64,000 nucleotides of DNA from Gemmatimonadaceae bacterium (GTDB lineage Bacteria; Gemmatimonadota; Gemmatimonadetes; Gemmatimonadales; Gemmatimonadaceae): the NCBI GenBank assembly GCA_030647905.1, contig JAUSJA010000026.1, positions 124,001 through 188,000 of the forward strand. The letters are read 5' to 3'. The notes under the pieces were generated by a model, which worked only from the letters and a program-made list of their open reading frames with translations, was not told the DNA's origin and ran no database searches. The first letter of the stretch is position 1. The number at the start of each line of letters is the position of its first letter. Shown one piece after another: positions 12,902 through 53,138 of this stretch. A program made the translations under genes and the position numbers.

Positions 12902-14437
12902 ATGGAACCCCCGATGAACTTTCCCGAACCCGCGCGCCGCTCGTGCGACACCACGATGCTCTGGGCCGTCTCGGCCGCGGTTGCCGGCCTGGGGACATGG
13001 GTGATGTACGCCGCACTGCCCGGGCTGAACTGGGTGATCTGGACGACAGCGGCGGCCGCCGGACTCCTTCTCTTCAGCCGATCGGCGAAAGTCGCATCGG
13101 GACCAGTCGTCGTTACCGGGGTTCTCGCGGCCATCATCGCTGGCGGTGTGGCCATGACCGCCGATCCGTTCATGCATGCCCTCATCTGCCTGGCGGTCAT
13201 TCAGCTTCTCGCACTTCAGATGCTGCTCGCGACCGACGGTTGGTGGACCCGGATTGCGCCGCTGTTCACCCTCGCCGCGCCTATCGTTGCGTTCGGCTGC
13301 GCCGTCATCGAGTCCGCGCGCCGCGCGCTCGAGGCATTGCACATCGTCCGGTCGCATCGCGCCATATCCGTCGTGCAGGGTCTGGCGATCACCGCTCCGG
13401 TGCTTCTCGTCTTCGCCCTGCTCCTTTCGTCCGCCGATCCTGTCTTCGCCCAGTGGCGTGCTGCGTTCGAGCACCTGCTGTCGAGCTGGGCATTTCTTCC
13501 GCGGACGGTTTTCTTTCTGGCGCTTCTCACCATCGTCCTCGGCGCCTACGGATTCGCGGCGAAAGGCGACGATGCACCGACCATCGCCGCCCTTGCACCT
13601 CCCGGCGATCGCGGCGGACGCTGGCTCGGCGCAACGGAGCGCCTCATCCTCCTCGGTGGCGTCGCTCTTCTCCTTTGGGTGTTTCTTCTCGTTCAGCTGA
13701 GCTACCTGTTCGGCAATCTCCCGATCGTCGCCGGGTCGGGGATGACCTTCGCCGAGTATGCGCGAAGAGGCTTCGCTGAGCTAACGGTGGTGGCATCGGC
13801 GAGTGTCCTGTTGATTCTTTTCGCCGAGCGATTCGGGCGCCGGGGCGAACGCGAAGTCCTGCTTCGTGCCGTGACGATCGCGCTGATCGTCGCCGTGCTT
13901 TGCCTGCTTGGCTCGGCGTTTCACCGCGTGTCGCTTTACGAAGAGGCGTATGGATTCACCACGTCGCGGCTCTATGCTCAGACCTACATGATCGTGGTCG
14001 CGATCAGCCTGGTGGCACTGGCCATCGAAGTGCGGGGCGAGATCCAGCCCCAAAGGGTATTCCGTCGCGCGGCGTCAGCGGCGGCGATCGCGTTCATCAC
14101 ATTGATCTACTGGAATCACGGGGCGTGGATCGCGAACCGGAACATTGATCGCTTCGCGACGACCGGGAAGCTGGATACCGTCTATCTCACGCGTGATCTC
14201 TCGCCAGACGCGGTTCCCGCCATCGCCGCGCGACTCACATCACTCCCCGAGCCCGCGCGGTCGGAGCTTCGCGCGGCGGTGAACCTGCGTTATCGCGGAC
14301 GGCACCGCCTTCTCGACCAGCGATGGTTCGAGTGGAATCGTGGCCGAGCCAATGCCCGGAATGCGCTGTTGCGACTGGGAATTCCGCTGCGTCTTCCACC
14401 GCGGCCAGCGGTTCAGCCGGAGGCCGCGCGGCCCTGA
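12902..14437 (+). CDS. DUF4173/DUF4153-like polytopic membrane protein
   Basis: 511 aa from the ATG at 12902 (a second ATG lies at 12914). An upstream in-frame TTG at 12821 is rejected because the promoter lies downstream of it. About ten or more hydrophobic segments fill residues 15-410 (for example WAVSAAVAGLGTWVMYAALP and SLVALAIEV). A soluble C-terminal tail follows, carrying the family-like NIDRFATTGKLDTVYLTRDL and SPDAVPAIAARL. The YGFTTSRLYAQTYMIVV segment is typical of DUF4173. The function of the family is not known. It is probably monocistronic: it has its own promoter and converges on the M20 gene with 3 bp between stops. Confidence 0.75.
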   Translation: MEPPMNFPEPARRSCDTTMLWAVSAAVAGLGTWVMYAALPGLNWVIWTTAAAAGLLLFSRSAKVASGPVVVTGVLAAIIAGGVAMTADPFMHALICLAVIQLLALQMLLATDGWWTRIAPLFTLAAPIVAFGCAVIESARRALEALHIVRSHRAISVVQGLAITAPVLLVFALLLSSADPVFAQWRAAFEHLLSSWAFLPRTVFFLALLTIVLGAYGFAAKGDDAPTIAALAPPGDRGGRWLGATERLILLGGVALLLWVFLLVQLSYLFGNLPIVAGSGMTFAEYARRGFAELTVVASASVLLILFAERFGRRGEREVLLRAVTIALIVAVLCLLGSAFHRVSLYEEAYGFTTSRLYAQTYMIVVAISLVALAIEVRGEIQPQRVFRRAASAAAIAFITLIYWNHGAWIANRNIDRFATTGKLDTVYLTRDLSPDAVPAIAARLTSLPEPARSELRAAVNLRYRGRHRLLDQRWFEWNRGRANARNALLRLGIPLRLPPRPAVQPEAARP

Positions 14438-14440
14438 GCG

Positions 14441-15841
14441 TCAGCTCTTCGTCGCGGCCGCGTACTCGTCCCAGAATACTGCCATCGCGCGCATCCCCAT
14501 CCGGAAGCTCTCCTCGCTCATCCACTCGTCCGGCGCGTGCGCGTTTTCGCCCGGCAGTCCGAACCCGACGAGAAGCACAGGTACGCCGAGCACCCGCTCG
14601 AAATCGCCGACGACGGGAATCGAGCCTCCCTCGCCGACGACGACCGGCTGCTTCTCAAATACCGTCGCCAGCGCTCGCTTCGCGGCGTCGAAGAGAGGCC
14701 CCTGGAGCTCGGCGCGCCACGGCTTTCCGCCGTGGAGATATGTCACTGTCGTCTTCACTCCCTTTGGAGCTACGCGCTCCACGTGCGCCGTCACCGCCTT
14801 GCCGATCTCAGCCGGATTCTGATCGGGAACCAGCCGGCAGCTCACTTTCGCCATCGCCTTGGAAGGCAGAACCGTCTTTGCGCCCTGGCCCGTGTATCCG
14901 CTGAGAAGGCCATTCACTTCGCAAGTAGGCCGGGACCAGAGGCGCTCGAGTACCGTGAATCCTTCTTCGCCCCCGAGCTCGGGGGCACCTGTCTCCTTGC
15001 GAAAAGTCTCCTCGTCGAATGGAAGACCGCGCATCTGCTGCCTGATTTTCGGCTCCCATTCACGCACCGAATCGTAGAACCCCTCGATCGCGATACGGCC
15101 GTTCGCGTCATGCATCGTGGCGAGAATTCTCGCCAGCGCCATCGCCGGATTGATGACAGCACCGCCGTACGCTCCCGAATGCAGATCCATGCCCGGCCCC
15201 TGCACGGTGATCTCGAAGTAAGCGAGCCCCCGCAGCGACGAGAGAATAGACGGCTGTCCCGGCGCGAACATGGTGGAGTCGGAGATGACGACTGCATCGC
15301 ACGCCAAAAGCTCCTTGTTGCCCTCCACGAAGTGCTCGAGGTTGTCGCTTCCAACTTCCTCTTCGCCTTCCGCGATGAGGACGACGTTCACGGGCAGCGT
15401 GCCGCGCGTGGAGAGATGCGCCTCCAGTGCCTTCACGTGGAGGAAAAGCTGACCCTTGTCGTCAACCGACCCGCGCGCGTAGATGTTGCCGTCCCGAATC
15501 GTCGGTTCGAACGGGGGCGACGTCCAGAGCTCGAGCGGCTCGGGGGGCTGCACGTCGTAGTGACCGTACACGAGCACAGTTGGCGCTCCGGGCGCACCGC
15601 GCCATTCTCCTGTCACGACAGGGTGGCCGGTTGTCGGATGGATCGTCGCCTTGAGGCCGGCCTGTTCCAGAGATCTCTTCAGCCATTCCGCAGCGCGCGC
15701 CACGTCGGCGTTATTCTCTGACTTTGCGCTGACACTCGGAATTCGCAGGAACTCGAAGAGCTCGTCGCGGATTCGCGTATCGTTGTCATCGAAAAACTTG
15801 TTCAGATCGGTATTGGCAATATTCGTCATTTCAGATTCCAT
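14441..15841 (-). CDS. M20-family metallo-dipeptidase
   Basis: 466 aa di-zinc peptidase of the M20/M25 dipeptidase (CNDP-like) group, probably cytosolic. Metal ligands and catalytic residues are visible: VYGHYDVQPP (His and catalytic Asp), RGSVDDKGQ (bridging Asp), AEGEEEVGS (general-base Glu and ligand), VISDSTMF (Asp ligand) and GENAHAPDEW near the C-terminus (His ligand). The lid/dimerisation domain lies between the two catalytic halves (about residues 210-370). The ATG at 15841 is used; a second ATG four codons in (15829) is equally possible. The role is peptide turnover. Confidence 0.92.
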   Translation of the reverse strand: MESEMTNIANTDLNKFFDDNDTRIRDELFEFLRIPSVSAKSENNADVARAAEWLKRSLEQAGLKATIHPTTGHPVVTGEWRGAPGAPTVLVYGHYDVQPPEPLELWTSPPFEPTIRDGNIYARGSVDDKGQLFLHVKALEAHLSTRGTLPVNVVLIAEGEEEVGSDNLEHFVEGNKELLACDAVVISDSTMFAPGQPSILSSLRGLAYFEITVQGPGMDLHSGAYGGAVINPAMALARILATMHDANGRIAIEGFYDSVREWEPKIRQQMRGLPFDEETFRKETGAPELGGEEGFTVLERLWSRPTCEVNGLLSGYTGQGAKTVLPSKAMAKVSCRLVPDQNPAEIGKAVTAHVERVAPKGVKTTVTYLHGGKPWRAELQGPLFDAAKRALATVFEKQPVVVGEGGSIPVVGDFERVLGVPVLLVGFGLPGENAHAPDEWMSEESFRMGMRAMAVFWDEYAAATKS

Positions 15842-36570: not shown

Positions 36571-36640
36571 GGGTAACGGGTAACGGGTAACGGGTAACGG
36601 GTAACGGGTAACGGGTAACGGGTAGCGGGTAACGGGTAAG
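36571..36640 (+). repeat. Tandem heptamer array, 10 units of GGGTAAC
   Basis: Ten contiguous 7-bp units: seven GGGTAAC, one GGGTAGC, one GGGTAAC, one GGGTAAG. The GGG-N4-GGG spacing fits the intramolecular G-quadruplex pattern on the plus strand. For the leftward sucA transcript the G-rich strand is the template. A related array lies at 52605-52673. Confidence 0.97.
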
Positions 36641-40184: not shown

Positions 40185-45592
<5,408 letters not shown>

Positions 45593-52155: not shown

Positions 52156-52617
52156 ATGCAGGATGCGACTGCAGGCGCCATCCCACCTTCGATCGATCGC
52201 GTGCTACGACTCTTCCGCTCGATGGGACGCGAGGAGAAGATGCAGGCGCTCGTGCAATATTCCAAGAAGCTCGAGCCCCTTCCCGCGCGATTGCGCGATC
52301 TCGATCGCGCGGCATTCACGGTTCCCGAGTGCCAGACAAGGGTGGACATCATCCCTGAAGTGGTGGATGGAAAGATGCATTTCCACGCCGACCTCAACGC
52401 CCGCCAGTCGCCGACGATCGCCGCGGTCCTCGCCATCGTCTTCGCCGCGGTGAATGGGCAGCCGCCTTCCGCCACGCTCGCCATTCCTCCCGATTTCGTG
52501 CGCACGCTCATGGAAAGCATCGGACTGGGCGCACGGGAGGCCGGCCTCAACGCGATGATTGGCCGCCTCAAGCGCTACGCCGCCGAGGCCGCTGCCCTCC
52601 CCGCGGGCAACGGGTAA
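52156..52617 (+). CDS. sufE: SufE-family sulfur-acceptor protein
   Basis: 153 aa. SufE accepts sulfane sulfur from SufS cysteine desulfurase for Fe-S cluster assembly. Visible: FRSMGREEKMQALVQYSKKLEPLP at the N-terminal helices and VPECQTRVDI with the acceptor Cys (usual form VPGCQSQVW, so here Glu replaces Gly and Asp replaces Trp). Also ARQSPTIAAVLAIVFAAVNGQPP and a C-terminal RTLMESIGLGAREAGLNAMI. SufS is not nearby. The last residues (PAGNG) and the stop codon are made by the heptamer array at 52605. Confidence 0.88.
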   Translation: MQDATAGAIPPSIDRVLRLFRSMGREEKMQALVQYSKKLEPLPARLRDLDRAAFTVPECQTRVDIIPEVVDGKMHFHADLNARQSPTIAAVLAIVFAAVNGQPPSATLAIPPDFVRTLMESIGLGAREAGLNAMIGRLKRYAAEAAALPAGNG

Positions 52618-52673
52618 CGGGCAACGGGCAACGGGTAACGGGCAACGGGCAACGGGTAGCGGGTAGCGGTAAC
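52605..52673 (+). repeat. Tandem heptamer array, GGGYAAC units, overlapping the sufE stop
   Basis: Nine full units and one partial: GGGCAAC, GGGTAAC, GGGCAAC twice, GGGTAAC, GGGCAAC twice, GGGTAGC twice, then GGTAAC. The second unit supplies the TAA of sufE. Nine GGG tracts with 4-nt loops fit the G-quadruplex pattern on the sense strand, so sufE mRNA could fold one. The array ends 27 bp before the DUF6526 start codon. Confidence 0.97.
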
Positions 52674-52700
52674 TTCAAGCAACTCCAATCAGGGGAATAC

Positions 52701-53138
52701 ATGGCCCGCACGGCCCAGACCTACGCCAACCACCGCCGGCTCCTGCCACCGGTGCACTTCTTCGTCATTCCTGTCCTCCTCATCAACGTTGGCGTCGAGA
52801 TAGCGCGTCTCAACAAGTACCGCACACCCTATCACGTGTGGATGGTCGTCGTCACTCTGGCACTCCTTGTCCTTGGATTCACCGCGCGCAGCATGGCGCT
52901 GGCTGCGCAGGACCGCACCATCCGGCTCGAGGAACGATTGCGGCTCGCAGCTCTCCTGCCCGCGGACCAGCGCGCCCGCATCAATGACCTGACCCCGCAC
53001 CAGCTCATTGGCATTCGGTTCGCCTCAGACGAAGAGGTACCCGCGCTCGTGCAGCGTTGCCTGGCCGGCGAGCTTCGCTCCACGGACGATGTGAAGAAAG
53101 TCGTGAAGAGCTGGCGTCCCGACTATTTGAGGGTGTAG
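52701..53138 (+). CDS. DUF6526-family small membrane protein
   Basis: 145 aa. It opens AQTYANHRRLLPPVHFFVIP, like other DUF6526 members, with two transmembrane segments (about 18-38 and 46-68). A cytosolic tail (RTIRLEERLRLAALLP, LTPHQLIGIRFASDEEVPAL, DVKKVVKSWRPDYLRV) follows. The AGGGG in front of the ATG at 52701 is a good ribosome-binding site. The function is unknown. It follows sufE across the heptamer array. Confidence 0.75.
   Translation: MARTAQTYANHRRLLPPVHFFVIPVLLINVGVEIARLNKYRTPYHVWMVVVTLALLVLGFTARSMALAAQDRTIRLEERLRLAALLPADQRARINDLTPHQLIGIRFASDEEVPALVQRCLAGELRSTDDVKKVVKSWRPDYLRV

Follow-up and report, generated by a model that had tools for sequence, protein, structure and literature searches.

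Tandem heptamer arrays have been described for years in several bacterial groups, and we know of no carrier for them. Rehm et al. (2015) reported dispersed heptamers in Xanthomonas (GGGAATC) and in Nostoc (GGGGAYT), both of which form quadruplexes in CD assays; in Xanthomonas, 83% of the repeat positions are common to sister species, and no link to a mobile element was found (PMC4692102). In the Beggiatoaceae, TAACTGA forms intergenic direct repeats, for which MacGregor (2015) raised the possibility of a mobile element or of a protein that binds the repeats (PMC4679880). The 23S IVS of Coxiella is a selfish element of ~430 nt that contains a PF05635-type ORF and terminal inverted repeats, with tandem GACAGAT heptamers located upstream of its S23 ORF, and the inverted ends of the IVS form an RNA stem that is cut by RNase III (PMC4990558). 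Here we analyze a heptamer array at the 3′ end of sufE in a Gemmatimonadota genome and propose, with a probability of roughly 70%, that it is a solo-arm relic of a selfish element of the IVP/S23 ("23S rRNA intervening sequence protein") type that now provides the sufE stop codon.

The window analyzed is a 64,000-nt stretch of contig JAUSJA010000026.1 (positions 124,001 to 188,000, forward strand) from a Gemmatimonadaceae bacterium. The features that bear on the array are as follows:

52156..52617, plus strand: sufE (PF02657, E = 9.6e-18), with its last codons, GGC AAC GGG and TAA, in units 1 and 2 of the array
52605..52673, plus strand: the heptamer array (from the sequence and TRF), a putative solo arm from an element of the IVP/S23 type
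52701..53138, plus strand: the downstream DUF6526 gene (PF20136, E = 5.7e-37)
36571..36640, plus strand: a second, 10-unit solo array of the GGGYARC family, flanked by two minus-strand genes

An earlier, sequence-only reading of this locus described nine and a half GGGYAAC units with C and T alternating at position 4. The array is real and contains nine units (52605–52667) followed by a degenerate GGTAAC (52668–52673), but because units 8 and 9 read GGGTAGC, the unit is properly GGGYARC. With C, T, and t denoting GGGCAAC, GGGTAAC, and GGGTAGC, respectively, the units run C T C C T C C t t, which is not an alternation but a higher-order repeat of 21 bp, or three units (CTC-CTC-CTT; TRF period 21, 97% matches). 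The two-unit pattern has 18 matches in the window, compared with 0.93 expected, a number far beyond chance. As had been claimed, the G-rich strand is the sense strand and 27 bp separate the end of the array from the next start codon, the DUF6526 ATG at 52701, which is preceded by a Shine-Dalgarno-like AGGGGA at 52691–52696. The second solo array is located 128 bp upstream of a 2-oxoglutarate dehydrogenase E1-like gene. The window also contains, at 43129–45055, a 276-bp repeat in seven tandem copies (78% matches), which probably represents repeated domains in a coding region.

The SufE protein ends in ALPA-GNG-stop, and the GNG residues and the TAA are supplied by array units 1 and 2 (GCG GGC AAC GGG TAA), which bears out the claim that the array encodes the last residues and stop codon of sufE. 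Because the array has a period of 21 bp, the TAAs of all its T units share one frame, and another frame is open across the entire array and on into DUF6526. This frame layout means that changes 5′ of unit 2 can lengthen SufE or fuse it to its neighbor. Indeed, frame computation shows that loss or gain of units at the 5′ end of the array results in SufE proteins of 153, 160, 167, or 174 aa, and that other unit changes at this end produce an in-frame SufE–DUF6526 fusion of 322–329 aa; 3′ of unit 2, the sole effect of such changes is on the distance between sufE and DUF6526. Hence, the suggestion that unit number leaves the sufE stop unaltered holds 3′ of unit 2 and fails at the 5′ end, and what insulates the stop is its position in unit 2, rather than the fact that 7 cannot be divided evenly by 3.

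The genome that harbors this locus (G000) is a Gemmatimonadota MAG of 3.1 Mb in 37 contigs and is 98.6% complete; judged by the named relatives of its DUF6526 protein, it falls near the Gemmatimonadales. The sequence-only reading had held that arrays found by chance only here and at 36571 would speak against it; a genome-wide search instead revealed 52 arrays of at least three units (3–24 units each) at about 35 loci, and the two seemingly local arrays are members of a genome-wide repeat family. Nearly all of the loci are intergenic, located beside unrelated genes and in both orientations. In 15 of 15 inverted pairs, the C-rich arm precedes the G-rich one, an order that is independent of strand. 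Several of these hairpins have a common loop close to GAAGCTCWCAGCAAC, and five genomic sites match the shared loop sequence within 3 mismatches. Some pairs span the gap between convergent genes, with ends 5–10 bp from both stop codons, giving them a terminator-like appearance. Other loci, including both window arrays, are solo arms. According to simple gene calls, where a single array overlaps a stop codon, the G-rich strand is sense in five of six cases, and single arrays between co-directional genes are divided between about six sense and five antisense. In one hairpin (L073, C17:141876–141940), the spacer carries a second small tandem array, GATTGTCT, whose unit is 8 nt long, which gives the impression of a separate expansion at the inner end. 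Arrays also lie at or near contig ends (C17:153373–153540 and C27:187240–187323); long arrays are thus probable break points of the assembly, and the arrays would in truth be more numerous and longer than reported here.

One array locus in this genome contains an intact gene between two arms. The region C20:9177–9887 comprises 24 C-rich (GTTRCCC-type) units, a 121-aa ORF, and 19 G-rich (GGGYARC) units. The ORF (C20:9421–9738) belongs to TIGR02436/PF05635, the four-helix-bundle "23S rRNA intervening sequence protein" or S23 family. Its 3′ end lies within its own G-rich arm and reads GGC AAC GGG TAA, the same in-frame stop as that of sufE. This is the one armed IVP element found in G000, such that an intact IVP gene is present at 1 of ~35 array loci. 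The sole solved relative of the C20 protein by sequence is XCC0516 from Xanthomonas campestris (2GSC). The S23/IVP four-helix-bundle protein is a relative of the DGR protein Avd, and for S23/IVP proteins, despite the solved structure of XCC0516 (2GSC), we know of no function. The hairpin loop was considered as a possible remnant of the IVP 3′ end, but comparison of the two gave a match of 7 nt only (AAGCTCA). The flanks of the 52605–52673 array contain no IVP ORF or remnant, no partner arm, and no loop, and we therefore infer its own descent from its unit; the array would be a solo-arm derivative and is not itself a member of the IVP/S23 elements.

The arrangement at C20 is found at many PF05635 genes. 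In a set of 90 PF05635 loci from G000 and its relatives, tandem arrays of 6–9 nt flank both sides of the gene in 39, and the flanking units match in inverted orientation in 35, while neither feature was observed in any of 68 controls. With a plain inverted-repeat score, the flanking inverted repeat exceeds the best of the 68 controls in 66 of 86 PF05635 genes. Seven is the best tandem period on both sides for 38 of 86 Gemmatimonadota genes, 8 of 12 plasmid genes (from 12 non-redundant records, mostly cyanobacterial), and 20 of 25 viral-contig genes, compared with 1 of 136 controls. Arms of octamers (8 nt) are present at the IVP elements L108, L115, L121, L129, L131, L176, and L179, and the element L187 has an apparent 9-nt unit.

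The arm units vary between IVP elements, even inside one genome. Those in G022 are GAGAGTT, TGCAGAG, CGAGGTC, and ATCGTGA, and those in G037 are GGAGTCT, GGGCCTG, and GGGACGG. Among the cyanobacteria, the unit is GGGAGTA on the Nostoc edaphicum plasmid, where the element is located between nrdB and nrdA, GGTGACA on the Anabaena 90 plasmid, where it lies between cas6 and cas4, and GGGAACA in Nostoc C052. Armed IVP/S23 genes on the plasmids of N. edaphicum, Pseudanabaena galeata, Anabaena sp. 90, and Picosynechococcus PCC 7003 (L193, L194, L195, and L198) occupy operon gaps, namely nrdB–nrdA, cas6–cas4 (twice), and cas10–cmr3. On plasmid AZO_p2 of Azospirillum lipoferum 4B, an IVP ORF with 7-nt arms (14392–14754; L197) sits within an apparent 23S rRNA gene, at a place where the plasmid table has no annotated feature. 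Across elements, arm-unit similarity follows IVP protein identity (Mantel r = 0.26, with 0 of 1000 permutations as high).

If the dispersed arrays are relic arms, the unit in the IVP arms of a genome should equal its dispersed unit. In G000, the arm unit of the C20 IVP is that of the dispersed arrays, and G054 and G045, whose IVP arms consist of GGATGCG, both contain many GGATGCG arrays. The unit GGGACTC, fixed beforehand and belonging to the IVP at G033:C2:2342635, has 599 matches in G033, a 100% complete genome of 7.5 Mb in a handful of large contigs, whereas the count does not exceed 9 in any of 60 other genomes. The arm order of the hairpins is that of the IVP element in four of four genomes (G000, G054, G045, and G033), with the hairpins running G-rich then C-rich in G054 (6/6), G045 (7/7), and G033 (17/17); as hairpins within a genome are copies, the effective sample in this test is four genomes, not 45 events. 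Exceptions are G017 and G027, described below, and G018, in which the IVP arm unit, GGGTATC, was found only at its IVP, and not every arm unit has spread. Collectively, these data show inverted heptamer arms at PF05635 genes, unit identity in four genomes, and a conserved arm order. For the broader proposal, that dispersed heptamer (and some octamer) arrays in several phyla, including those of Xanthomonas, Nostoc, and Beggiatoa, are IVP/S23 arms or their relics, with a unit predictable from the IVP arms, we regard the odds as evenly balanced.

The alternative that survives best, though we consider it unlikely, is that the hairpins constitute an independent MITE-like family into whose loops IVP genes preferentially insert, making the window array a MITE relic. 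Most array loci are indeed without an IVP gene, an inserted gene would leave the arm order trivially intact, and there is a parallel in the IVSs, which sit in 23S rRNA hairpins. In addition, GGATGC arrays abound in G017 and G027, although this unit is absent from the IVPs examined there (four of five in G017 and both in G027). On viral contigs, no PF05635 gene was found within 500 bp of 140 array loci with the units GGGAATC, GGGGAYT, TAACTGA, or GGGYAAC; at one TAACTGA locus an IVP gene lies 1267 bp from the array. However, the IVP genes of one genome can differ in unit, as in G022 and G037, and the arms thus seem to travel with the gene. That the arm unit tracks protein identity, and that the IVP within the Azospirillum 23S rRNA gene also has 7-nt arms, likewise argues against independent hairpins.

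The viral contigs also contain same-orientation pairs of TAACTGA arrays placed 432 or 439 bp apart (L313, L326, L340, L371, and L378). This spacing is close to the size of an IVP element; no PF05635 gene was detected at these pairs.

The sufE–DUF6526 pair is present without the array in 19 of 19 relatives, with an intergenic gap of −4 to 115 bp, and the most similar SufE among relatives is 78% identical. Genome-wide, the three-unit pattern has 199 overlapping matches in G000, between 0 and 15 per genome in 18 congeners, and close to none across 42 more distant genomes. Absence from relatives, which the sequence-only reading had named as a finding that would count against it, is therefore what is seen at the sufE locus (0 of 19) and very nearly what is seen across genomes. 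The empty sites thus indicate a dispersed, lineage-specific repeat as opposed to conserved regulation, and the window array is, as judged from sequence comparison, a young, lineage-specific insertion or expansion. Among 17 array loci checked in congeners and relatives, one likely shares a neighboring gene with the G000 arrays. The likely shared neighbor is that of L080 (C25:29750 in G000) and L238 (G003 C26), and its product is 70% identical between the two genomes.

These comparisons bear on the suggestion, made from the sequence at the outset, that the mRNA could fold a quadruplex across the sufE stop. Folding itself is plausible, as the array has nine G-tracts with 4-nt loops and the energy predicted for the RNA of the array alone changes from −12.2 to −19.9 kcal/mol once quadruplexes are allowed. 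A regulatory role, in which an RNA or DNA quadruplex across the stop codon tunes translation of DUF6526, is unsupported by the 19 empty sites and by arrays that occur beside unrelated genes in both orientations. Moreover, units can lose their G-tracts, and no clear expression effect was seen by Rehm et al. (PMC4692102). Because there is neither conservation nor a preferred strand, we give regulation at sufE a low probability, below that of the MITE-like family. Conserved regulation of the sufE–DUF6526 pair was ruled out by the 19 empty sites.

Still less probable is that pure replication slippage, starting from a chance GGGTAAC seed and involving no mobile element, generated the array. The G000 arrays do contain higher-order patterns of 21 bp (CTC CTC) and 14 bp (CtCtCt), which are signs that slippage or unequal exchange expanded the arrays locally. 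However, the GGGYARC unit is found at ~35 loci of one genome and almost never in its congeners, and the one-way inverted pairs and shared loop need copying between sites. Local slippage as the sole cause was ruled out by this dispersal, the one-way pairs, and the loop common to the hairpins, which is non-repeat sequence adjoining the arrays and shared between them. Least credible of all is an origin as palindromes of the REP/BIME type, mobilized by a RAYT (Y1) transposase, or as reverse-transcriptase copies, since, despite the hairpin shape, intergenic location, and dispersed copies, searches with PF01797 (Y1) gave no match in G000 (98.6% complete), G017, or G027, and those with PF00078 (RT) gave none in the five array-rich genomes searched, including G000.

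Under our preferred reading, that the window array is a solo-arm relic, the core of the parent element would be a ~120-aa four-helix-bundle protein (PF05635/TIGR02436), with inverted tandem arrays of heptamers forming its ends. Internal deletion may convert full arm–IVP–arm elements to hairpins (arm–short loop–arm) and subsequently to solo arms, with the number of units in an arm rising and falling by slippage, as the 21- and 14-bp patterns suggest. The arms, as hairpins of DNA or RNA, may be the substrate on which the IVP protein works in concert with host enzymes, and we suspect that the four-helix-bundle protein recognizes them. At sufE, an arm would have landed at or near the original stop, an insertion that could be tolerated because the T units carry TAA or TAG and thereby bring their own stop codon. 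Unit 2 would then have become the terminator codon of sufE, leaving the remaining units untranslated between sufE and DUF6526. The sufE case would illustrate how an arm that provides a stop codon can be incorporated into a host gene.

If correct, this proposal would place the S23/IVP protein in a mobile element whose ends are heptamer arrays. It would join arrays that lack a carrier with a protein that lacks a function and provide a hypothesis on both, and it would give a class of bacterial repeats in several phyla a common origin. It also implies that the sequence flanking the IVP genes should foretell which heptamer is repeated across a genome, as it did in the one test fixed beforehand, with GGGACTC in G033. 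What is new here is the link between dispersed heptamer repeats and IVP/S23 elements, of which no statement was found in a literature search whose reach excluded most subscription journals.

Comparison with the described systems reveals both shared and distinct features. Like REP/BIME sequences, the G000 repeats are dispersed extragenic palindromes, but unlike the REP/BIME–RAYT systems they have tandem heptamer arms, and G000 contains no Y1 transposase. They resemble the Beggiatoaceae TAACTGA repeats in being dispersed intergenic heptamer arrays, and the TAACTGA unit brings stops in all frames; the unit is different, and in the Beggiatoaceae no carrier has been identified. The repeats of Rehm et al. 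are similar in more respects, as both consist of heptameric G-tract units in arrays of at least four, present in many copies, mostly intergenic, and capable of forming quadruplexes (here by prediction). Both also show a sense-strand bias near or overlapping stop codons and paired inverted arrays, though the window array itself is solo. In contrast, our repeats have another unit, occur in another phylum, and are linked in this analysis to IVP elements. They also differ from the Xanthomonas repeats in that position is not conserved, the sufE site being empty in 19 of 19 relatives; position conservation, however, describes the Xanthomonas repeats and is not strictly defining of the Rehm type. Finally, compared with the Coxiella IVS, the window array lacks an ORF and lies outside rRNA, and the Gemmatimonadota elements are intergenic and carry longer heptamer arms, on both sides of the gene.
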